Shown here: in pieces, positions 18,130 through 64,000 of the stretch
How positions within the stretch are numbered: position 1 is the stretch's first letter
How the letters are laid out: each line of letters starts with the position of its first letter
Origin: Haloferula sp. BvORR071
Lineage (GTDB): Bacteria; Verrucomicrobiota; Verrucomicrobiia; Verrucomicrobiales; Akkermansiaceae
Length of the DNA: 64,000 bases
Assembly (NCBI RefSeq): GCF_000739615.1
Contig: NZ_BATP01000001.1
Coordinates: 62,001 to 126,000 of the forward strand
Reading direction: 5' to 3'
Notes under the pieces: model-generated
What the model was told of the DNA's origin: nothing
Databases searched by the model: none
Seen by the model: only the letters and a program-made list of their open reading frames with translations
Position numbers and translations under genes: made by a program

Positions 18130-18561
18130 GTCCGCACCGTGATGGCACTCCACCCCACTAGCGATTTAATAACACTCACCGGGGCCGATTTACACTTTTA
18201 GATCGGTCCCAAGGCCGCGAGCGAAAAGATCATTCCATGGGTGCTTGTGACGGGCGTCAATCGGCTAAAAGCGACCGCCGGGAGCGCTTCTGAAGATCGA
18301 GCCTCGATGATCGCGAACTGGGCACCAATAGCCCCCTCCGCCGGAGCAGTCCCTCTTGATTCCATCCAAGTTTTGCGGCCCATCTCATGTCCTTCTCAAT
18401 TGCGCTACAACGAAGTAATTCTCTGGTCCTTACCGCCTATTTGCCGGCTGACTTAGCCATTCATGCTGATGCCCTCAACTTTTATGAGAAGTAGCAAAGG
18501 GGCCACCAAAGTGGTAGCATTCCCGCTCTGCACCTCGTAGAAATGCCACCTTATCATCACC
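18130..18561. other. intergenic region before the uvrA-like gene
   Basis: No convincing gene. The end nearest the UvrA gene holds the short inverted repeat GCCACCAAAGTGGTAGC followed later by ATGCCACCTTATC, possibly an operator. No clear promoter boxes were identified. Confidence 0.35.
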
Positions 18562-21225
18562 ATGCCGCTGGAACCCCGTCCTGACGGTCGGAAAGACATC
18601 CCTCCCTGCGTTCATGTTCGTGGCGCGCGGGAGAACAATCTGAAGAACGTGGATGTCGATATTCCGCGCGATGCGTTTGTAGTCTTCACCGGCGTTTCCG
18701 GTTCAGGGAAATCGTCGCTCGCCTTTGGCACGCTGTTCGCAGAAGCACAGCGACGCTATCTGGAGTCAGTCTCGCCCTACGCCCGCCGCTTGATCGACCA
18801 GGCAGGCGTTCCGGAGGTGGATTCCATCAGCGGGCTGCCTCCGGCGGTGGCCTTGCAGCAGCAGCGCGGCGCAACCAACACCCGCTCCTCGGTGGGCAGC
18901 GTGACGGCAATCTCCAGCCTGGTGCGCATGCTGTATTCCCGTGTCGGTGAATATCCGCCGGATCAACCGATGCTTTACGCCGAGGATTTTTCTCCCAACA
19001 CGGTGGAGGGTGCCTGCCCGACCTGCCATGGGCTGGGGCGCGTCTATGAGGCCACCGAAAAGACCATGGTCCCTGATGATTCGCTAACGATCCGCGAGCG
19101 TGCCATCGCCGCTTGGCCCCCAGCGTGGCACGGGCAGAACCTCCGCGACATCCTCGTCTCTCTTGGGTACGACATCGACACACCCTGGCGCAAGCTGTCG
19201 AAGAAGGTGCGCGACTGGATACTCTTCACAGACGAACAGCCCACCGTCCCGGTCTATGCGGGCCTCACCCCGGAACAGACCCATGTCGCCCGCAAGCGGG
19301 GCACCGAGCCCAGCTACCAGGGAACGTTCACCGGGGCGCGCCGCTATGTGCTGGAGACCTTTGCTAACACCAAAAGCGCCCTCATGAAGAAGCGGGTGTC
19401 GCGCTATCTCATCGGCCGGGACTGCCCGGATTGCGCCGGCAAGCGGTTGAAGAAAGAGGCGTTGTCGGTGAAGTTCTGCGGGCTGGACGTTGCCGGGTTT
19501 GGTGAACTTTCCTTCGAGGGACTCGTGGCTCTGCTGACACCGATAGTGCGGGGCGATCTGTCTCATATCAAAGACCTCTCCAGCGACCACACCCTCGACA
19601 AGCAGACTTGCGTCGCTGCCTCGGATCGGCGCGTCGCAGCTGGCGGTTCCGCCCACAAGGGCGCGCCTGACGTTCGCCGGACCTCGTCGGTTTCCGAGGA
19701 AAAGCGCCTTACCGCCCAGCGCCTGTGCTCAGAGCTGCTGGAGCGGTTGCATCCGTTGATCGACCTTGGGTTGGGCTACCTCTCCCTGGACCGCAGCACG
19801 CCCACGCTGTCCTCAGGCGAACTGCAACGCCTCCGGTTGGCCACCCAGGTGTTCTCCCAGCTCTTCGGCGTGATCTACGTGCTGGACGAACCGTCGGCGG
19901 GATTACACCCGGCGGATGGCGAGGCGTTGTTAACAGTCCTGCGCGGCCTGCTATCCGCGGGAAATTCACTCTTCATCGTCGAACACGATCTCGACATCAT
20001 CCGCCAGGCAGAGTGGTTGGTTGACGTGGGGCCGGGCGCGGGGAGCGAGGGCGGGCGGGTGATCTATAGCGGGCCTCCCGACGGGCTCGGAAAAATCGAG
20101 GCTTCGATCACCCGGCGGTATCTCTTCGACCTGCAACCGCCGGAAGCCCGTACCCCTCGAACGGCACGGGACTGGCTCCGGCTGGAAGGAATCGCCCGCA
20201 ACAATCTGCACGGCCTCGACATCGCCATTCCCATCGGCTGCTTCACCGCGGTGACCGGAGTGTCCGGCTCGGGAAAATCCAGCCTGATCAGCCAGGCATT
20301 ACCGGAACTGATCCAGGAACAGCTCGGTGCCGATCCGCCTGAATCCGAAGACGAGGAACTCGACCCGCTACTGGAAATTGCACAGGAAAAGACCTCTGGT
20401 CGCATTGTGAGCGGCATAGAGCACATCCGGAGGCTCGTGACGGTGGATCAGAAGCCCATAGGCCGCACCCCGCGATCGAACCTCGCCACCTACAGCGGCC
20501 TTTTCGACCACGTCCGCCGACTCTTAGCCGCGACACCGGCCGCGCGACGCCGTCGTTACGGCCCCGGCCGATTCTCCTTCAACGTGGCGGAGGGCCGCTG
20601 CCCTACCTGCGAAGGGGAGGGCTTTGTCATGGTCGAACTACTGTTCCTCCCCAGCGTTTACGCACCCTGCTCCTCCTGCCAGGGTTCCCGGTACAACGCC
20701 CAGACGCTTGAGATCGAGTGGCGGGGAAAGAACGTTGCCCAAGTGCTGGCCATGACAGTCGGAGAGGCATGCGAGTTCTTCGCGGGGGAAGAAAACGTCA
20801 TGCGCTCCCTCTCGGTGCTCCGCGAGATCGGAGTCGGCTACCTGCGCCTCGGCCAGCCGGCCACGGAACTCTCCGGCGGCGAAGCCCAGCGAATCAAACT
20901 GGCCACCGAACTGCAAAGGGCGCAACGCGGCAATACCCTCTACATCCTCGACGAGCCGACCTCGGGCCTGCATCCCGCCGACGCCGACCGCCTGATGCGT
21001 CAGCTCCAGGGCCTCGTGGATGCGGGAAACACCGTCATAGTCGTCGAACACGACATACGCTCCATCGCCCAGACCGACTGGGTGATCGATCTTGGTCCCG
21101 GCGCTGGTGAGAATGGGGGGCGCATCATCGCCAGCGGCACTCCCGTCGAGGTCTCCAAGGCAAAAAACAGTCGCACCGCGCCCTATCTCCGGGCGCTCTT
21201 CAATAAGGTCGTGGCAGCCAAGTAA
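18562..21225 (+). CDS. uvrA2: class II UvrA-type ABC ATPase (UvrA2)
   Basis: The 887-residue protein has two ABC ATPase modules. Walker A is GVSGSGKSS near residue 45 and again near 570. There are paired signature motifs ([16 protein letters not shown] and [16 protein letters not shown]) and Walker B segments ([32 protein letters not shown]). Zinc CxxC pairs occur at [24 protein letters not shown] and CSSCQG. It is shorter than housekeeping UvrA and lacks a normal UvrB-binding region, as in the UvrA2 class linked to damage tolerance or drug resistance. It converges on a DsbA/peroxiredoxin pair. Confidence 0.9.
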
Positions 21226-54475: not shown

Positions 54476-57400
54476 TCTCAGGCCACGGACGCAGACGGGG
54501 TGGTTGTGAGCTATACCTATGATTCGGAGGGGCATGTCTCCTATAAGACTGAGACCATGCCGAACTCCGCCGGAAGTCGGACAACTGCATTCAATCATGG
54601 CTCTACAGCCGACGGCACCCTCGGTCCTTGCTACTCGGTCGAGACGCAAGTCAACGGCACGAGTATTTCGACCAGTTTAACCGCGGCCAATGGTCTCGGC
54701 AGCGGAACGATTACCCTCGGTGGCACGACCCGCTCAGTCGCCGTGCTGGGCGGGCCGACTACGACTTGGACAGCGGGCAGCTGGACCGAGATTACCACCC
54801 ACCCGGATGGAACTCGCCTGCGCCGAGAATATGTCGACGGTCGCCTCGACGCGGAAGAACAACGCGACAGCACGGGGGCTACGGGGGTGGTTATCGCCAG
54901 CACGACATACGGCTACGACGATTTGGGGCGTGTGGACTCCACTACAGACTCCAGAACGGGAACTGTAGACCAAGGTCCCTATACCGAGTCAGGCAATCTC
55001 CTGAGCCAAGCGGATTCAGCAGCCCGCACGACCGCGTGGAAGTACGACAAGATGGGGCGCGTGACTGAAGTTGATGGAGAGAATACCTTGGACGCATCGT
55101 CCAACACGGTCTACAACAAGAGCTACACCTCCTACTTCTACGACGGCAGCGTTTCTGCCAATTGGGGTGATCAAGGTTATGCGCTCTCCTACGCTTACGA
55201 CGAGCAGGGCCGACCGAAGGAGATGCGAACCTATCGGGCGCTCGATCACAACGAGGATCCTCTCAATCAAGTGGGCACTCCCGATGCGGGAGATCCAACC
55301 GCCTGGATCTACGACGTCGAGCGCGGCTGGCTGACGGATAAGGACGACGCGGCCTCGAAGGGTGCCCACTACTCTTATACCGCGGCGGGGAGGCTCAAGA
55401 CCCGCACGTGGGCTCGTGGTGCCCACACGCTGTACAGCTACGATCAGGGATTACTGTCGGCGGTGGATTATTTTACGAGCTCCGCGGCGACCACTGTGGA
55501 TTCACTTACCCCCCTCTGGATTACATTTACGATGCGATGGGCCGATTGAGCTCGGTGACGCGCGGCGGTAACACTCACTTCACCTACACCTATTCGTCGA
55601 CTGATCTCGACCTTTTGACGGAGACTCAGAACGACGCCATCGTTCAGCAACGGGTATTGACGCGAAAGCGCGATGCTTACCTGCGGCCCACCGGGTATAA
55701 GCTTGGCACGACCTCACTCAACAACGCAATCAGTGAGGTCACTTATACCTACGATACCGCGGGCCGATTTTCCAGCCTCACTTACCAGCGCATTCCAGCA
55801 GCAACAATGCCGCCGCCGCCGCCGTCGCAGACCTTCACTTACGATTACGAATACGAAGTGGCGAGCGCTAGCCATGTAAGGCACGGGAGCGGCACAGCAA
55901 AGCAATCCCTCATGCCCTTTGGCATGGATGGTCCGCAGCATTCCGTCACCAAAATGTATCATGCGACTCGGGACGCCCTACAGTCGATTTCCAACCTTTC
56001 AGGTGTCAACAATCCATCAACCTTCGACTATAACTATAATGCCATTGGCCAGCGAGAAGGCGTGGGCTTGTCCAGCGGCTTTGGTGCCACTTCCGAATGG
56101 ATCAGCTGGGGATACGATGCAAAAGGCCAAGTTGTCTCGGCGGATTCAGACGCTGGGACGGCCGGTACAAGTGATGACCGCTTTTATTCCTACGACCAAA
56201 TTGGGAATCGCATTCAGTCGCGCGTCGGCACGGCAACTTCCACCGGTGGAACGGCAACTACAAACTACTACGCCGACGCAGGGGCGACCTCGTCTGGAGG
56301 CAGCGCCCTCAACCAGTATGGTTCAATCGTCACGGGGGTGAATGCTGCTGACCCGGTTCACGACGATGATGGAAATCTCGTGGACGACGGGGCTGGGTGG
56401 GATTATGCTTGGGACGGAGAAAATCGCATGATTTCAGCCACTCCCAAGGTGCCCACGAGTGGGACGAAGGTCGGGTATGTCTACGACTACCTTGGTCGCC
56501 TTTGTGCGCGTCGGTTCTTCAATTGGAACGTGGGAACCTCGTCGTGGAACGCTAGTGAAAATTACCGCTACGTGTATGATGGATGGAACCGTATCGAGTC
56601 TTACTTGGACTGGAATCTACTCCAGGACGAATACGTCTGGGGTTTAGACCTCAGTGGTACCCTCCAAGGTGCTGGCGGGGTGGGGGGAATGCTGCAATGG
56701 GTCACGTCCTACAACTCCGGTAGTAGCTGGAACAACTATTACCCTCTCTACGATGGCAATGGGAACGTGACCGAATTGCTCAACGATGCTGGTGCGGTCA
56801 AGGGGCATTGGGATTATGATCCCTTCGGCAATACCCTACGCAGTATGTCGGTGACGAACTGGTATGACCCGGGCAATTTGTTTGAGTTTAGGTTCTCAAC
56901 TAAGCCCGAAGACCGTCGCACTGGGCTATATTACTACGGCTATCGATACTATGATCCGGTAAATGGGAGGTGGTCGAGTAGGGACCCTAAGGGGGAAGAA
57001 GTGATTTCCAATCTTTACAGTTTCATTGATAATGATGGAGTTAATGTGTGGGATATTCTCGGCTTGCAGGGTGCAATGCCTGGATATGCGGAGGCAATGG
57101 AGGATTGTAAAGCGAAGGAGCAAAGGATAGCAGAAGAGCAGTACGATAAAAGAGAGTTGAGAGAGAAGGATTTGGCGATTAGAAGACTACTGGACGAGGG
57201 AGGTTGCAATGAACAGATGAGAGCGAGAGGTAAGGAAAAATTAGTCGCTCAATACGAAAATCGCCGCAACATGTATCGGGCAACAGGGGTAAACCGGAAG
57301 CTATTTCTTCCCTACTTTAGGGATGGAGAAGCTAGCTGCTACAATCAAAATGCTGATTTTCTTGCAGGCATCGTTGTTCCGCCCTGCTGGGAGTGTCATC

Positions 57401-57561
57401 TAGAAAATGGCAGGACGCCAATGGATAAGCCTCTAAAAAAATCAGGGGATCACTGGTGGGTGATATGTCGCTCGTATAGCGGGGAGGAAATTATGTTTGA
57501 TGCTTACTTTGATATGCATGGGGCTCAGCCGCCATATAAAACAGAGATAAATATACCGTAA
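54476..57561 (+). pseudogene. RHS-repeat protein, 5'-truncated and frameshifted
   Basis: RHS/YD repeats begin abruptly (SYTYDSEGHVSYKTETMP) with no signal peptide or N-terminal domain. They run with YDxxGRxxx units to 55508, where a six-C run (55509-55514) shifts the frame. Seven Cs would give DSLTPPLDYIYDAMGRLSSV. After the shift the RHS core continues and ends with the hallmark YYYGYRYYDPVNGRWSSRDP, then NLYSFIDNDGVNVWDILGL. An AT-rich C-terminal domain follows. RHS proteins encapsulate and deliver polymorphic toxins. Loss of the N-terminus suggests an orphan module, although the poly-C break alone could be a sequencing error or phase switch. Confidence 0.7.
57055..57561 (+). other. RHS C-terminal toxin-like domain (papain-like candidate)
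   Basis: The 168 residues after the RHS core boundary (DILGL) differ in base composition: the DNA is visibly richer in A and T than its surroundings. A helical linker (CKAKEQRIAEEQYDKRELRE) precedes a globular part with FRDGEASCYNQNADFLAGIV, then GDHWWVICRSYSGEEIMFDA. The order Cys (SCYNQN), His (DHWWV), Asp (FDAYF) fits a papain-like catalytic triad, as in known RHS-linked peptidase or amidase toxins. The fold call is an inference from these three positions only. Confidence 0.4.
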
Positions 57562-57720
57562 ATATCCCGGTGTCGGATGAGGATTACAATAAGAATTTTC
57601 CTCCCCATGAAGTTCTTCATCCGCTTCCGTCACACCGTGTCCCCGCCAAAAAATCAATCACAACTGACAAATATGGACGCCCGCCAAGAACAGATGGCCC
57701 AAGCTACGTTAGGTAAGATT

Positions 57721-58044
57721 ATGAGGTTATTCCTCATCGCGCTGATTTTTTTGGGAGGCTGCAGAAGCAATCGTAAGACCACGGAGTACGGAACTAGAAA
57801 CCGTGAGGCAACTCGTATAGCAATTTCAATTGAACAATATGTTCACGCTGAAGGAAAGATGCCCGTTCGGTTGGAAGATGTTGTACAAGAGGTTGATGAA
57901 ATTGACGTGAGCGCTTGGCAGATTTTCGATGTCAACCAAGATATTGCCAAGACGAGGAAGCCCTTTCGAATGGGGAAGTGTATAGTTGATATGATTGTGT
58001 CCAAAGACTTTAAGACCAGGGTTGAAATTGTGAAAAGGCTTTAA
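57721..58044 (+). CDS. lipoprotein, candidate immunity protein
   Basis: The 107-residue protein starts MRLFLIALIFLGGCRSNRKT, a lipoprotein signal with lipobox FLGGC. A polar globular part follows (TRIAISIEQYVHAEGKMPVR, LEDVVQEVDEIDVSAWQIFD). It shares the AT-rich composition of the preceding toxin-like domain and lies 160 bases after it, the usual place of an immunity gene. A membrane-anchored periplasmic inhibitor would fit a toxin acting on the cell envelope. The frame is open upstream to 57577, but the lipobox decides the start. Alternatively it is a small pseudopilin-like lipoprotein. Confidence 0.5.
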   Translation: MRLFLIALIFLGGCRSNRKTTEYGTRNREATRIAISIEQYVHAEGKMPVRLEDVVQEVDEIDVSAWQIFDVNQDIAKTRKPFRMGKCIVDMIVSKDFKTRVEIVKRL

Positions 58045-59428: not shown

Positions 59429-60959
59429 TCAGTTCATGGATTGCACCCGTCGAGACGGTCGCGAAGTGGCATCTGCGAGGGACGTTGCCGTATTTGCATC
59501 CCGCGCCCGTCCCTTGGCCCATTTCCGCAACGCCTCGATCCGTTCCTTCATCAGCTTCGCCACCGGGGTGGTGGCGGCGATGGCGGTGTGGATGTCGTCT
59601 GGAGTCGGTTCGCGGCCTTCTGCAAATGCCTCATGCAGCGCTTCACGATAAGCACCTTCGATCTCCGCCCCGGTGAACCCCTCGGTCTCCTTGGACAGCG
59701 CGGTAAGGTCGCAGGATCTCGGGTCACGATGGTGCCCGGCGATGACGATTTCCCAGATGGAGGTGCGTTCCTTGGCGTCGGGCAGATCAACGAAGAACAT
59801 GGAGTCGAACCTGCCAGTCCTGAGGAGTTCTGGCGGAAGCTGGCTCACGTCATTGGCGGTAGCAACCACGAAGACAGGCTTAATCTTCTCCTGCATCCAG
59901 CTCAGCAGGGAGCCGAAGACCCTGGATGAAGTCCCACCGTCCGAACCTCCGCTTCCCGCCATACCTGAGCATGCTTTGTCCAGCTCATCCACCCACAGCA
60001 CGCATGGCGCGACGGCCTCAGCGGTGCGGATCACCGAGCGAAGGTTCGCCTCACTCTGACCGACGATCCCGCCGAACACCCTCCCCATATCGAGACGCAG
60101 GAGAGGCAGTTGCAGTACGCTGGCGGTGGCCTTGGCGATGAGGCTCTTGCCAGTGCCGGGAATACCGACGATGAGCAGGCCTTTCGGCACCGGTAGCCCA
60201 TAGTCGCGGGCGGCGGCACCGAAGGCGGGTCGGCGCTGGGACAGCCAACGCTTGAGGCATTCCAGACCACCGATGTCGTCGAGGTTCGGCTTCGCCTCGA
60301 TCACTTCGACCAGACCGCCACGCTTCAAGGTCCCGGCGTTTTTCCCGCGCCACCAGATCCGGGTCAACCCGCCCGGCTTTCACCAGTGACAGGGCGAACG
60401 CGTTCTCGGCTTCCACGGTGGTGAGTCCGAGGGCCGCGTGGAGGATCCGCTCGCGAAGACCTTCGTCCGGCTCAGGCTGATCCGCGGATCGTAGGATGCC
60501 GTCTAGGACTTCACCCAGGCGCGGTGTGCCGGGCAGGTCGAGGTCGATGGCAGCAACCTCGTGTTCGAGTTCGGGAGGCAGCTTGTGGCGGCAACCGGTG
60601 ATGACCAGCGCGTGGCCGGAAACCTTGGCGAGGCGAAGTAGATCCTTCAGGCGGCGGATGAGTAGCGGGTCGTTCTGGTCAAGGTGAAGCTGGAGGTCGC
60701 GCAGCATGACGATGTGGCGTTCGCCTTCCTGACGAAAGAGGGCATCGACGTGCATCAGAGCTTCCAGCGGGTCTGGGCACGGGGTGGAGCGTCCCGCTTG
60801 GACATCCACGAGGCCGTCGGTGGACGACCAGGCGTGAAGGTGGCGTTGGAGTTCGGTGCACGCTGCGGACAACTCCGCTTCAGCGCGCGCTTCTTCCGGC
60901 GTGACGAGGACAAGGCCGGGGTAGCCGGCACGGAGGTAGGTGGTGATTGGAGTATTCAT
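59429..60959 (-). pseudogene. Ycf46-like AAA+ ATPase, frameshifted in a 5-A run
   Basis: From ATG 60959 the frame gives the Ycf46-type N-terminal part (YLRAGYPGLVLVTPEEARAE, VMLRDLQLHLDQNDPLLIRR, LKDLLRLAKVSGHALVITG). It ends out of frame after GRVDPDLVARE. Removing one A from the run at 60343-60339 joins it to NAGTLKRGGLVEVIEAKPNL and the AAA+ module. That module has GLLIVGIPGTGKSLIAKATA (Walker A), CVLWVDELDKACSG (Walker B), ATANDVSQLPPELLRTGRFD (sensor 1, Arg fingers) and FTGAEIEGAYREAL (sensor 2). The joined protein is about 509 residues, normal for Ycf46. It is a member of the cassette at 59.4-64 kb. A sequencing error is likely because both halves are otherwise intact. Confidence 0.72.
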
Positions 60960-60978
60960 GATGATTGGGATGGATGTG

Positions 60979-61012
60979 AAAAGGCCCCGGTCTCCACGTG
61001 GGAGCCGGGGCC
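60979..61012 (-). terminator. Rho-independent terminator before the AAA+ gene
   Basis: On the minus strand GGCCCCGG ... CCGGGGCC form a stem with further pairing inside, followed by TTTTCAC. It ends the upstream small-gene transcript about 20 bases before the AAA+ start, so the AAA+ gene either has its own promoter or depends on readthrough. Confidence 0.7.
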
Positions 61013-61072
61013 ATCGGGTAGGGAGTGGGGTATGGGTCAGTGGAGACTAATGGGGACACCGACGAGGCCAAT

Positions 61073-61542
61073 TCATCGAGGGACCCTGGTAAGCAGGAAG
61101 GTTCCCCGCTCAGGCTCCCGAATTTGGTTTGCTGTCGACAGGATACCGAGGTTCCCGGTTTTCAAATCGTAGTAGTCGACGGCGATCGGTATCCATTGGG
61201 CATCGTCATTGTCTGGTGCGGCATCGACGTAAGCATGGAATTCGAGATCGTCGATGAGCCCCGAAGCACTAAGGGGAGATCCTCGTCGTGCATAAGGTTG
61301 AGGCCCCTCTTTTGCGTGTACTGATTGAGGGTGCGATTGATCTTCGCAGGACCGTTCTGCATCAGCTTCGGAGCACTGGCGTGCCAAGATTGTCGGGCAT
61401 CCTTTTCCTCGGACGTAGCAGCGGAAGTGATCTCCGGGGATGCGGTGCCACTTTGAGGGGATCCCTTGAATTTCACGACGAAGACCAACCCGACCACCGC
61501 CGCAAGTCCCAGAACCAAGGTGATGATCTCACGGGATTTCAT
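61073..61542 (-). pseudogene. membrane-anchored small protein, frameshifted in a C run
   Basis: From ATG 61542 the protein starts MKSREIITLVLGLAAVVGLV, one membrane segment. It continues SWHASAPKLMQNGPAKINRT, LNQYTQKRGLNLMHDEDLP and then leaves frame. One extra C in the CCCC run (61276-61273) restores SASGLIDDLEFHAYVDAAPD, NDDAQWIPIAVDYYDLKTGN up to the stop at 61073. The family is not recognised. It is anchored in the inner membrane with a soluble part outside or inside. Confidence 0.5.
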
Positions 61543-61567
61543 TGTTCTATGGATGCTTGGGTTAGGG

Positions 61568-61927
61568 TCAGTCGAGTTTCTTGAGAATCTCAATGCGGCG
61601 CTTGGAGAGAACCTCGAAGCGTTTCCGGATCTGATCGAGCGAGTAGCTGGCGGCGCTGGCCTGGTTGGAGGCGTCGTAGGCTGTGCTCGCGCCGTCATTG
61701 GCCAGGTCGTAGTCGCCGGAGACGGCTCCGTAACCTGCAGCGAATGAACCGATGAAGGCGTCGAATTCCGCGCTGCTCATCTGGGCCTGGTGCTGCCGGG
61801 CGGCGATACTGAGTTGTGCAATCTCGGTCTGGATGGAGCGGAGTTCGGCTCTGAGTTCGGATTTATTGGGGCCACAGGCTGCCAAGAGCAGGATGATGGC
61901 GAGGGGGAGGCAATGTGGTTTCTTCAT
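61568..61927 (-). CDS. small lipoprotein of the cassette
   Basis: The 119-residue protein starts MKKPHCLPLAIILLLAACGP, with lipobox LLAAC. A coiled-coil helix follows (KSELRAELRSIQTEIAQLSI, AARQHQAQMSSAEFDAFIGS), then a Gly/Ala/Ser segment and a basic helix (DQIRKRFEVLSKRRIEILKK). It is anchored at a membrane from the outside. It diverges from the XRE gene across a 30-bp palindrome and precedes the membrane protein at 61542 by 25 bases. Confidence 0.7.
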   Translation of the reverse strand: MKKPHCLPLAIILLLAACGPNKSELRAELRSIQTEIAQLSIAARQHQAQMSSAEFDAFIGSFAAGYGAVSGDYDLANDGASTAYDASNQASAASYSLDQIRKRFEVLSKRRIEILKKLD

Positions 61928-61957
61928 GGATGGAGGTGTTGGAGGAGTGGCAGGAAC

Positions 61958-61987
61958 CGGATTGCTCCGATATTGGAGCAATCCGGC
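61958..61987. promoter_or_regulatory. 30-bp palindromic operator between lipoprotein and XRE genes
   Basis: CCGGATTGCTCC-GATATT-GGAGCAATCCGG has 12-bp perfect arms. A further half-site, GGAGCAATGG, at 62020-62029 covers the XRE start codon. Two sites of this kind are typical of autoregulating XRE proteins; the divergent lipoprotein gene would be controlled by the same palindrome. Confidence 0.65.
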
Positions 61988-62026
61988 ATCTTTGCCGGGA
62001 TAGGGTCAAGCTCCGACTTCGGAGCA

Positions 62027-62305
62027 ATGGCGGCTGGAAAACAGAATCTGGTGGGTGGTCGCGTTCGCAAGCTCCGGACGACGGCCGGACTGTCCCAGGA
62101 GTCGCTTGCGGCGAGATGCGGGGCGGCAGGCTGGGACGTGAGCCGCGGAACCTTCGCCAAGATCGAAGCAGGCCTGCGCCGGGTGAACGACGCGGAATTG
62201 CTTATCCTGGCGAAGGCCTTGCGCTGCACGGTCGGAGACCTGCTGGAAGGGTTTCCGGCCAAGGCCATCGCCGACGTGTTGCGTCAGGGCGAGGCCGGTG
62301 GCTGA
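62027..62305 (+). CDS. XRE-family helix-turn-helix regulator
   Basis: The 92-residue protein starts MAAGKQNLVGGRVRKLRTTA. The HTH runs GLSQESLAARCGAAGWDVSR, GTFAKIEAGLRRVNDAELLI, ILAKALRCTVGDLLEGFP. It is a single DNA-binding domain, probably a dimer. The start at 62027 is decided by the domain and overlaps a GGAGCAAT half-site of the upstream palindrome, which suggests self-repression. It is the only plus-strand gene in the cassette, and its end overlaps the end of the converging small gene by 22 bases. Confidence 0.82.
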   Translation: MAAGKQNLVGGRVRKLRTTAGLSQESLAARCGAAGWDVSRGTFAKIEAGLRRVNDAELLILAKALRCTVGDLLEGFPAKAIADVLRQGEAGG

Positions 62306-62541
62306 GCGAAACCCGGTTGCAGGTTGGCTTGCTCCCACTCGAGGCAGGCCTCGCGCGAGGGATTGGAATGGAGGAGTTGCAGGGTATCCGCGCAGCGGAC
62401 CTCCCAGCATTGCTCCTCCGGGTTGAAGTCGATCGCAGTGGCCCGGACGACATGGAGCCGTCCGAGTTGCCTGAGATCGATCGCTTCCGTGTAGATGCAG
62501 TCGACGGCCCCTCTGGGATCGAAACGCAGTGTCGTTTTCAT
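62284..62541 (-). CDS. hypothetical protein of the DUF1257/DUF2997 operon
   Basis: The 85-residue protein reads MKTTLRFDPRGAVDCIYTEA, IDLRQLGRLHVVRATAIDFN, PEEQCWEVRCADTLQLLHSN, then PSREACLEWEQANLQPGF. It is a beta-rich soluble protein ending in a helix. Its start overlaps the DUF2997 stop (ATGA), so it is coupled to that gene. I recall similar small proteins beside DUF2997 genes but no named family. Confidence 0.6.
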   Translation of the reverse strand: MKTTLRFDPRGAVDCIYTEAIDLRQLGRLHVVRATAIDFNPEEQCWEVRCADTLQLLHSNPSREACLEWEQANLQPGFAQPPASP

Positions 62542-62738
62542 GATCCTCCGAGGGATTGCTGTTGCTGGACGTTGACGCCGCCCTGCCGGTGCTCCGGCTT
62601 GAGCGTGCGCCCGGTGGGCTTGCCAAGGGCCTGCTCGATACTCTGCGTGGCGGCCTCGCAGCCCTTGCCCTGGAAGCCCTCAGCCTCCACTTGAATGTCA
62701 CCGGTCGGCGACACCCGAACGAGGATGCGACGGCTCAA
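62538..62738 (-). CDS. DUF2997 protein
   Basis: The 66-residue protein starts at TTG 62738 and reads LSRRILVRVSPTGDIQVEAE, GFQGKGCEAATQSIEQALGK, then PTGRTLKPEHRQ. The pattern IxVxISPxGxIxVEAxGFxGxxC, xxATxxxExALG is DUF2997. The TTG start is decided by AAGGAGGT just upstream and by its overlap (TTGA) with the DUF1257 stop. The family has no known function; it regularly sits beside Ycf35/DUF1257 and Ycf46-like genes in cyanobacteria and other bacteria. Confidence 0.82.
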   Translation of the reverse strand: MSRRILVRVSPTGDIQVEAEGFQGKGCEAATQSIEQALGKPTGRTLKPEHRQGGVNVQQQQSLGGS

Positions 62739-63121
62739 AGCACACCTCCTTCCAACGTGACTAGCACGGAGCCATCGGCTTCGAGCCGGCGGTTGAAGCG
62801 CAGGCCTCGGGTCCGGGCTTCCCGGATCGTCTTTTGAACGCCGTAGTTCTGCAGGAGTCGGCCGAAGCCGGCACCCACTTCGCGTTCGACATGACCGTTC
62901 CACCAGTCGGTGGTCAGGGAATAACGTCCGCCGTCCTCGGAAGGATCGACAGCGATGTCATAGGGGCCTTTCAACCGGACTACCCGGTGGGCTGTCCGGT
63001 TGATGCCAGCGTAGCCGCGGCACATGATCCCGGATTCCAGCACGAGGTCGAGTTCGGTGCAGGCGTCGCGAAGTGCTTCGAGGTCACGGACCTCAGTCTT
63101 GATGGTTGTGAAGTGAGACAT
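62735..63121 (-). CDS. DUF1257 (Ycf35-like) protein
   Basis: The 128-residue protein starts MSHFTTIKTEVRDLEALRDA and continues CTELDLVLESGIMCRGYAGI, KGPYDIAVDPSEDGGRYSLT, DWWNGHVEREVGAGFGRLLQ, NYGVQKTIREARTRGLRFNR. This is the DUF1257/Ycf35 pattern, known from red-algal plastids, cyanobacteria and phages, with no reaction assigned. It is first in the translationally coupled set DUF1257-DUF2997-small protein. The start at 63121 matches the family; the frame is open to 63166. Confidence 0.85.
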   Translation of the reverse strand: MSHFTTIKTEVRDLEALRDACTELDLVLESGIMCRGYAGINRTAHRVVRLKGPYDIAVDPSEDGGRYSLTTDWWNGHVEREVGAGFGRLLQNYGVQKTIREARTRGLRFNRRLEADGSVLVTLEGGVL

Positions 63122-63160
63122 GGGAAATTGCGAATGATCGTTGAATTGAAGGTTAGTTAC

Positions 63161-63199
63161 GCGCAAAGGGCGGCCCCGCGATGGAGCCGCCCTTTGCGC
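63161..63199 (-). promoter_or_regulatory. 14-bp perfect hairpin upstream of the DUF1257 gene
   Basis: GCGCAAAGGGCGGC ... GCCGCCCTTTGCGC is a perfect 14-bp stem with an 11-base loop, 40 bases upstream of the DUF1257 start. It could be a terminator of the HELGH gene transcript, an attenuator or a leader structure. No long T tract follows on either strand. Confidence 0.5.
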
Positions 63200-63350
63200 G
63201 CGTTAGTTGGGCGATCTTTGGCTAGTCAGGTAGTGGAGGTGGTTTCTTTGGCAGGAGTCGTGGTGGTTGGAAAAGATGGAGAGTTGGGATGGAGTCAGGG
63301 GTGTCGGGTGATGGATGGCAGCACGGTGGGAAAGGTATGCCGGTACGCGC

Positions 63351-63381
63351 CGATGCCCGCGCGGAGACAACGCGGGCATCG
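63351..63381 (-). terminator. hairpin after the HELGH protein gene
   Basis: CGATGCCCGCG-CGGAGACAA-CGCGGGCATCG is a perfect 11-bp stem 26 bases past the stop at 63408. It probably ends that gene's transcript, although no T tract is visible. Confidence 0.5.
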
Positions 63382-63407
63382 GCGGCAGCTATGCTATGGA
63401 GAAGGGT

Positions 63408-63962
63408 TCAGGTCATCCGGGAGAGCCCGTGATCCCAGCAGGTTTGCCAAAGTCCACGGAGGTCCGTGGGAGGAGGCTCGGCGAAATCTTCGCTGGCATA
63501 CATGAGCGCGATCAGCTCGCAGAACCGCTCTTGGCCTCCAGCTCGTGCCCCGTACCAAGAAGGCTCACCTGGCGGCCGATGCGGTCCAGGTAGCCACGAC
63601 AGTCGGCCGGACGCCGCCGTCTTCCATGACTCGGTCCTGTAGAGTTCAAGGTAGTCCGCCGGTGCCGGTTCGCCGAATGCTTCCCGAAACTTTTTCCAGT
63701 GCAGGGGACGGTATTCGTTCCAGAGGACATGTCCGAGTTCATGCATGGCGAACCAGTTTCTCAGGAAGGAGGTCGGGTAGCGTCCCATGTTCAACCGGGA
63801 GGTCGTGCCGTTGAAGACAACCTCCGAGCCGCCGAGTGGAAGATCCCATTTCGTGGTGATCGTGAAGCGAGGCACGCGGATACCACAGGAGAGGAGATAG
63901 GCAGCCGCCTGTTGGACCGCGTCGCGGGCGAGCTGTTGGCTCTTTGTGGGTGGTGTCTTCAT
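63408..63962 (-). CDS. HELGH zinc-metallopeptidase-like protein
   Basis: The 184-residue soluble protein starts MKTPPTKSQQLARDAVQQAA. It carries the zincin motif in FAMHELGHVLWNEYRP, preceded by SRLNMGRYPTSFLRNW. A later acidic segment, RFCELIALMYASEDFAEPP, could hold the third metal ligand (E in ERFCE or SEDFAE), as in gluzincin-type toxins and regulators. There is no signal peptide, so it acts in the cytoplasm. It lies upstream of the DUF1257 gene on the same strand, separated by two hairpins. Confidence 0.65.
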   Translation of the reverse strand: MKTPPTKSQQLARDAVQQAAAYLLSCGIRVPRFTITTKWDLPLGGSEVVFNGTTSRLNMGRYPTSFLRNWFAMHELGHVLWNEYRPLHWKKFREAFGEPAPADYLELYRTESWKTAASGRLSWLPGPHRPPGEPSWYGARAGGQERFCELIALMYASEDFAEPPPTDLRGLWQTCWDHGLSRMT

Positions 63963-64000
63963 TGGTTGGAGAAATGACCATCCACCCCGCAGGACGCAAG

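Follow-up and report, generated by a model that had tools for sequence, protein, structure and literature searches.

A Ycf46-type AAA+ gene set that may form the downstream end of a DUF3150 DNA module on a verrucomicrobial integrative element

Here, we analyse a gene set of Haloferula sp. BvORR071 that brings together a Ycf46-type AAA+ ATPase, DUF1257 (Ycf35) and DUF2997, families known mainly from algal plastids and cyanobacteria that sit here in a DNA-handling set of a verrucomicrobial mobile element. The genes lie in a stretch of 64,000 nucleotides (the window), which corresponds to bases 62001–126000 of contig C66 (177.8 kb) in a genome of 7.8 Mb. An original prediction had read positions 59429–63962 as a cassette with its own XRE switch, and the genes it named (DUF1257, DUF2997, a small third partner that we call small3, a lipoprotein, a membrane protein, a HELGH protein and an XRE regulator) are present where it placed them. 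The limits of that cassette do not hold, as the conserved set extends beyond base 64000 and the region covers its downstream part. The core genes, in window coordinates, are:

59429..60343, minus strand: C-terminal part of the Ycf46-type AAA+ protein (AAA domain, lid and C-terminal tail); PF00004 at E 7e-30, AAA_lid_3, and phrog_8638 at 363.8 bits
60345..60959, minus strand: N-terminal part of the same protein; phrog_8638 at 65 bits, 48–84% identical to the N halves of 12 relatives with an intact gene
62284..62541, minus strand: small3, the fourth core protein; phrog_38408 at 8.7e-8
62538..62738, minus strand: DUF2997 protein; PF11211 at 4.7e-15
62735..63121, minus strand: DUF1257 (Ycf35), with the N-terminus MSHF; PF06868 at 9.4e-8

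With the Pfam profiles, DUF1257 scores 32.7 bits (cut-off 22.2), DUF2997 55.6 bits (cut-off 24.1) and the C-terminal AAA+ frame 104.6 bits. The tight coupling noticed earlier can be read directly in the sequence: the stop codon of DUF1257 overlaps the TTG start of DUF2997 in the TTGA at 62735–62738, and the stop codon of DUF2997 overlaps the ATG of small3 in the ATGA at 62538–62541. We also share the earlier view that these proteins would form a tight complex with the AAA+ protein. The DUF1257 family has 1,253 members at E 0.001, the window's own included. Its N-terminal Met-Ser-His is invariant in 39 aligned proteins, and this N-terminus may be functional; exceptions are ISH in phage RcTiptonus (L013:8730-9149) and MSF in Paenibacillus (L124:9001-9375).

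Three further members of the set, DUF3150, an exonuclease and a family that we call N175, were missed by the original prediction because their genes lie beyond the window (contig coordinates):

C66:126028-127047: DUF3150, just past the window and upstream of the HELGH gene; match at 126373-126993, 83.2 bits, over the cut-off
C66:127480-128310: exonuclease, upstream of DUF3150
C66, about 128343-128837: N175, upstream of the exonuclease

Family names were drawn from homologues, namely PF12705 (5e-31) for the exonuclease and PF11348 (1.1e-25) for DUF3150, both in locus L022, phrog_947 (2.6e-25 in L017) for a sliding-clamp-like protein, and PF01068 (4e-10) with WGR (9.8e-8), both in L021, for a DNA ligase. 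N175 has no Pfam match above the cut-off.

To describe the set among relatives, we used 16 close loci from 13 of 57 genomes, found through DUF2997, and a wider set comprising the best 80 of 101 loci found with the DUF1257 profile. In the wider set many contigs are short and some genomes contribute several copies; the collection may omit records nearest the window's genome, and L016, L020, L021 and L023 are absent from it. Most of its loci (74 of 80) come from records titled Verrucomicrobia, Akkermansia(ceae), Prosthecobacter, Luteolibacter-like genera, Pedosphaera, Lentisphaerae, Victivallales or Kiritimatiellae. The conserved order is N175, PD-(D/E)XK exonuclease, DUF3150, DUF1257, DUF2997, small3 and Ycf46 AAA+, often joined by the sliding-clamp-like protein or the WGR ligase. 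As had been suggested, the Ycf46, DUF1257 and DUF2997 families do travel together outside cyanobacteria, and small3 is a fourth member: DUF1257, DUF2997 and small3 occur jointly in 14 of the 16 close loci, the AAA+ gene in 15, all four in 13 and DUF3150 in 13. L023 is without the AAA+ gene, and L030 and L031 are without a recognisable DUF1257. In the latter two, a CxxxCxxC radical-SAM-like protein, recognised by eye (L030:6791-7669 and L031:1411-2271), stands beside a divergent Ycf46 and DUF2997.

Among the 80 wider loci, DUF2997 was found in 75, small3 in 73, DUF3150 in 70, AAA+ in 61, the exonuclease in 39, N175 in 34, the clamp-like protein in 33, a cluster labelled S72 in 25 and the ligase in 20. 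Where at least 4 kb of downstream sequence is available, these proportions reach 45/45 for DUF2997, 44/45 for small3 and 43/45 for AAA+. With at least 3 kb upstream, DUF3150 is present in 53/55 loci; with at least 7 kb upstream, the exonuclease in 30/41 and N175 in 29/41; and with 8 kb on both sides, a clamp-like protein or ligase in 17/22. Further clusters are RadC-like (13 loci), integrase-like (6), SSB-like (4) and primase-like (4), the first two confirmed by Pfam on one member each and the last two read by eye. An independent test that did not start from DUF1257 gave the same association: across 288 genomes of the phylum, DUF3150 exceeded its cut-off in 13 (15 at E 0.001), DUF2997 in 14 and both in 8 (Fisher 3.3e-9), and nine of ten DUF3150–DUF2997 pairs lie within 3 kb, the exception being on contig C6 of G193, 18.6 kb apart.

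Sequence and gene position thus support a putative Ycf46-based variant of a DUF3150 DNA module on integrative elements. With moderate confidence, we read the Ycf46-type protein as the AAA+ machine of a recombination or replication module carried by such an element, of which the window holds the downstream end.

Among plasmids, DUF3150 matched 911 of 72,556 records (847 conjugative). Five plasmid regions show the order RecT/Bet, exonuclease, MoxR, DUF3150 and VWA, with unnamed genes between some of them; SSB is annotated in four and RadC in three. L123 and L140 are near repeats, so these regions represent four lineages. On a sixth plasmid, pAt1, MoxR adjoins DUF3150 and VWA is on the other strand, and the order N175–MoxR–DUF3150–VWA occurs in two genomes of the same phylum, G261 and G171 (L165, L166). 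All four VWA proteins checked carry HEAAH or HEAGH. Passages of earlier work describe MoxR and VWA genes as conserved between pCAR1, R478, Rts1, SXT and R391 (PMC2642839), and an excerpt of another study proposes MoxR and a vWA-metallopeptidase as a chaperone pair in jumbo phages (PMC7824862). At the window's locus, DUF3150 lies just outside the window and neither a MoxR AAA+ gene nor VWA stands beside it; Ycf46, DUF1257 and DUF2997 are there instead. Since DUF3150 goes with MoxR and VWA on plasmids and in the same phylum, the Ycf46 machine appears, from gene context, to replace MoxR/VWA around DUF3150. Such a swap suggests that two unrelated AAA+ machines perform the same task.

DUF3150 and the AAA+ protein also share a basic-hydrophobic C-terminal tail, with the motif R[RK][ILVFM] within the last 10 residues. 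We counted it in loci that are dominated by Verrucomicrobia, omitting eight loci that repeat L018, L022 and L024–L029, truncated C-termini and AAA matches below 250 bits. The tail is present in 73/75 DUF3150 and 50/61 AAA+ proteins (73/75 and 35/61 in a stricter form), compared with 3/44 exonucleases, 3/39 N175, 0/32 clamp-like proteins, 0/22 ligases, 0/76 small3, 0/83 DUF2997 and 0/86 DUF1257 proteins. Control windows placed inside the proteins gave 0/366 for AAA+ and 0.4% of 449 for DUF3150. The tail is found in 52 of 54 Ycf46-linked DUF3150 proteins versus none of seven MoxR-linked ones (omitting L140, which repeats L123, and L167, the second locus of G171). On the MoxR-linked plasmids, the exonuclease and DUF3150 end alike, by eye, plasmid by plasmid (SSFYF/NSFYF, PSFYF/RSFFF, DGVMIF/DGVFLF and ALLLF/GIMLF). 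The AAA+ protein of an IncC plasmid ends in SRRKLAIED. On that plasmid, two otherwise different proteins of 394 and 187 residues (L122:16541-17725 and 18502-19065) share a KRKIILD end.

The AAA+ gene itself is split in the window over two frames, with the N part running from 60959 to about 60345, the C part from about 60343 to 59429 and the break near 60344; 12 relatives (L017–L022 and L024–L029) have the two halves joined in a single frame. The C-terminal half holds a classical AAA domain (PF00004), and the N half has no Pfam AAA match. A structural model of a relative's AAA+ protein, folded and searched with its two halves together, aligns with p97 D1-D2, and the best BFVD matches of this model are phage proteins named ycf46.

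Relatives of the machine occur on plasmids and in phages. At E 1e-20, a full-length AAA+ relative matched 711 of the 72,556 plasmid records (623 with matches over 80% of the query, 593 conjugative). Among phage records, the window's C part matched 117 of 50,697 at E 1e-10, a count that includes general AAA proteins. By tblastn, phages SM1, RHph_I4 and HJ05 carry AAA+, DUF1257 and DUF2997 in order, some members can be recognised by eye in JP1 and RcTiptonus, and an annotated DnaB lies downstream of the phage copy in four of the five phages read. A first scan of IMG/VR gave five loci that all match the four core genes, one of them SM1, and a second added L121, with no small3 match. On a Nitrospirota plasmid, AAA+, a 50-residue protein, DUF1257, DUF2997 and DUF3150 stand in a row, and all four cyanobacterial plasmids read carry the Ycf46/DUF1257/DUF2997 trio. 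On plasmids of Paenibacillus, Rhodococcus, Paenarthrobacter, Treponema and Bacillus, genes for 4Fe-4S proteins adjoin AAA+ or are found no more than about 4 kb from it.

Mechanistically, we suggest that Ycf46 would form a tandem-AAA hexamer resembling p97, its first ring degenerate and its second active, for which DUF1257, DUF2997 and small3 would serve as adaptor. To judge from its position, this machine may remodel or load DUF3150, and via DUF3150 the exonuclease and annealing proteins could be acted on at DNA ends while the element recombines or replicates. The tail shared by DUF3150 and AAA+ would be a docking signal for a common receptor. A more general proposal, tentative enough that we would sooner doubt than expect it, takes Ycf46–Ycf35–DUF2997 as an AAA+ machine in general use among plasmids, phages and integrative elements, one that recognises its clients by a C-terminal tail that the ATPase itself also carries. 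Ycf46 and the unrelated MoxR-VWA would then both serve DUF3150 through separate tail codes, and the genes of cyanobacteria and plastids would be related to this mobile-element machine. Should the tail act as such a client code, it would allow substrates to be predicted from the sequences of many mobile elements, and perhaps also of plastids.

Several observations weigh against these proposals. The window's AAA+ gene lacks an intact reading frame and no second Ycf46-type copy was found in the genome, where the next three matches are 30–31% identical over part of the query; with its sole AAA+ copy broken, the module may be inactive here, or the assembly may be wrong at that spot. AAA+ is missing from L077 and L114, which have 4 kb of downstream sequence, and DUF3150 from L057 and L111, which have 3 kb upstream. 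The trio of Ycf46, DUF1257 and DUF2997 occurs without DUF3150 nearby on IncC, Paenibacillus, Rhodococcus and cyanobacterial plasmids and in phages, so DUF3150 is not a universal client. In the structural comparison, p97 D2 alone scores almost as high as D1-D2, so the D1-like half is weakly tested. The tail motif was picked after the data had been seen, and proteins belonging to one family do not count as independent cases. In 54 loci, the tail closest to that of AAA+ is DUF3150's in 32, with two ties and 20 in which it is not; the exonuclease's is closest in nine. Outside Verrucomicrobia the tail pattern is weak: the motif is missing at the ends of the Nitrospirota DUF3150 (190 residues) and of the AAA+ proteins of the four cyanobacterial plasmids. 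Across 12 further Ycf46 regions, the strict motif occurs in four AAA+ proteins and in 10/100 neighbours within five genes versus 6/115 farther away (p = 0.14), and the loose motif in 3/12 and in 11/100 near versus 4/115 far neighbours (p = 0.029). A search of the open-licence PMC literature found no biochemistry of DUF3150 or N175.

Around the core lie further features, which we list with those upstream on the contig:

61162..61542, minus strand: membrane-anchored protein; no match above a curated cut-off
61568..61927, minus strand: lipoprotein with the lipobox LAAC; weak NCBIfam lipoprotein matches below cut-off
61957..61986, no strand: 30-bp palindrome, likely the XRE operator, with arms 93% complementary
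62010..62028, no strand: second operator-like element; the pair recurs in L024
62027..62305, plus strand: XRE-family regulator whose 3' end overlaps small3; HTH_31 at 2.1e-9, counterpart in the same place in L024
63408..63962, minus strand: HELGH zincin-motif protein, the motif lying in frame 63411-63962
C66:129521-129787: second XRE gene
C66, listed between the second XRE gene and the integrase-like gene: three long proteins without a Pfam family
C66:139198-140559: integrase-like protein; PF00589 at E 3.7e-4, below cut-off

The HELGH protein, lipoprotein and membrane protein are local accessories outside the conserved unit. HELGH occurs in 4/16 close and 2/80 wider loci, both of the latter being contigs of the same close relatives; the lipoprotein in 7/16 and 4/80; and the membrane protein in 1/16 (tblastn) and 0/80. 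HELGH relatives number 86 at E 0.001, its own protein included, one with a UniRef name of IrrE N-terminal-like; no Pfam match was found at E 0.1, the Peptidase_M78 profile included. A different HExxH protein (HEWAH; Peptidase_Mx at 19 bits, below cut-off) forms a cluster in 6/80 loci, for instance L057:155-610, and L057 is without a HELGH match. Between the lipoprotein and AAA+ genes of L024 (L024:11101-13100) lie two membrane proteins whose N-termini resemble, by eye, that of the window's membrane protein, a link that tblastn did not give. In L020, L021 and L026, small3 and the lipoprotein share one open frame with no stop between, which may reflect a natural fusion or read-through.

By way of the putative operator pair, which recurs beside the XRE gene of L024 (Haloferula luteola) with identical 30-nt spacing, the window's XRE gene probably controls its neighbourhood. 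The idea of XRE control thus gains from a pair kept in one other genome, with the correction that the gene is on the strand opposite to the cassette. XRE genes at the window's position occur in 2/16 close loci and in just 1/80 wider loci (L048, on the same contig as L024); XRE-like genes on the opposite strand occur in 10/80, six of them in front of the gene set. The island setting suggested earlier is borne out, the site belonging to an integrative element, with the integrase-like gene (below the Pfam cut-off) upstream. Adjoining the cassette is an Rhs core protein (window 55408-57561, plus strand; TIGR03696 at 1.4e-17) in a region of lower G+C content, 49.6% in 56001-58000, and in L032:1741-3201 a lysine-rich, histone H1-like HC2 protein (PF07382 at 3.4e-6, below cut-off) adjoins an integrase-like gene.

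The original prediction had taken the region for a cassette serving conflict or stress, with the AAA+ protein remodelling a DUF1257–DUF2997–small3 complex and the HELGH peptidase as effector. The tight coupling, the operator pair, the opposite-strand XRE-like genes, the mobile-element setting and HELGH beside the core in four close loci are all compatible with it. We nevertheless consider it very improbable: neither HELGH as effector nor the lipoprotein and membrane protein as system parts survive the wider counts, where HELGH and the lipoprotein come only from contigs of close relatives, and the recurring neighbours are DNA-processing genes. Nor does a defence role emerge from PADLOC, which on ten proteins of L022 gave Cas4-like matches for the exonuclease, IetA-like matches for the ATPase domain and three weak matches at 12–14 bits. 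Assembly of virions or a transfer apparatus, with the AAA+ protein and its small partners chaperoning element-encoded structures as proposed in an excerpt on MoxR-vWA in jumbo phages (PMC7824862), would suit the copies in tailed phages, the IncC plasmid copy within a few genes of type IV secretion genes and the one beside baseplate-like genes in Treponema. It is unlikely given that exonuclease, clamp-like, ligase and RadC-like genes (the last in 13 loci) recur across the 80 loci and that four of five phage copies directly precede DnaB.

A machine for Fe-S or redox-linked cofactors, or for protein modification, with the copies on mobile elements performing that function on a protein of the element, has an equally low standing in our estimate. 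It draws on the Synechocystis cluster g, duf2997-ycf35-fed7 in an excerpt of PMC4284462, on the 4Fe-4S proteins of the five plasmid groups and on the CxxxCxxC protein of L030 and L031; no such gene stood out in DUF3150-type loci, though no search for Fe-S families was made there. Somewhat less improbable, yet still doubtful, is that the shared tail is a ClpX-type degron or a sliding-clamp-binding motif instead of a docking signal for the AAA+ machine. Many of the tails finish with LAA or IAA, or contain KLxL, and presumably resemble ssrA, MuA or clamp-binding peptides; a clamp-like protein is present in 33 of the 80 loci. However, the tail is also found in loci without a clamp gene in reach, and it differs between MoxR-linked and Ycf46-linked DUF3150.

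The setting of exonuclease, clamp-like protein, ligase and DUF3150 offers a testable molecular function for Ycf46, Ycf35 and DUF2997. Ycf46 reportedly regulates CO2 use in Synechocystis. The passages of the open-licence PMC literature covered yielded no molecular function for Ycf46, Ycf35 or DUF2997, and our searches there found nothing on DUF3150 and nothing joining AAA+ ATPase, phage and Ycf46. An SGI1 antitoxin ATPase is related to the SpoVK/Ycf46/Vps4 superfamily, according to part of PMC10954446.

Among known systems, IetAS is not matched: the window's AAA+ C part scores 94.4 bits against an NCBIfam IetA cut-off of 510, no subtilase domain was found by Pfam among ten window proteins and no IetS match among the ten L022 proteins. 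Unlike the tandem AAA ATPase p97/Cdc48, the Ycf46-type protein has no p97 N domain in the aligned range and no Pfam AAA match in its first half. The cassette of Samunavirus SM1, Rhizobium phage RHph_I4 and relatives has AAA+, DUF1257 and DUF2997 in the same order, with small3 matched in SM1 and RHph_I4, whereas a protein of 202–244 residues follows the AAA+ gene and DUF3150 has no match in those phages. Cyanobacteria and red algal plastids share the Ycf46, Ycf35 and DUF2997 families, with duf2997 adjoining ycf35 in Synechocystis in the portion of PMC4284462 considered; the set described here differs in the addition of small3, in DUF3150, exonuclease and N175 upstream, in its integrative element and in that no ferredoxin was seen. 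Finally, the RecT/Bet-Exo-MoxR-DUF3150-VWA module of MOBH and related plasmids and of elements of the SXT/R391 type likewise combines DUF3150 with an exonuclease, an AAA+ machine and further partners, and RadC accompanies both (three of five plasmid regions, and RadC-like in 13 of the 80 loci of the Ycf46 set). The plasmid module has MoxR, VWA, an exonuclease of the lambda family and RecT/Bet, whereas the Haloferula set has Ycf46 in place of MoxR, DUF1257, DUF2997 and small3 in place of VWA, a PF12705 exonuclease and N175.

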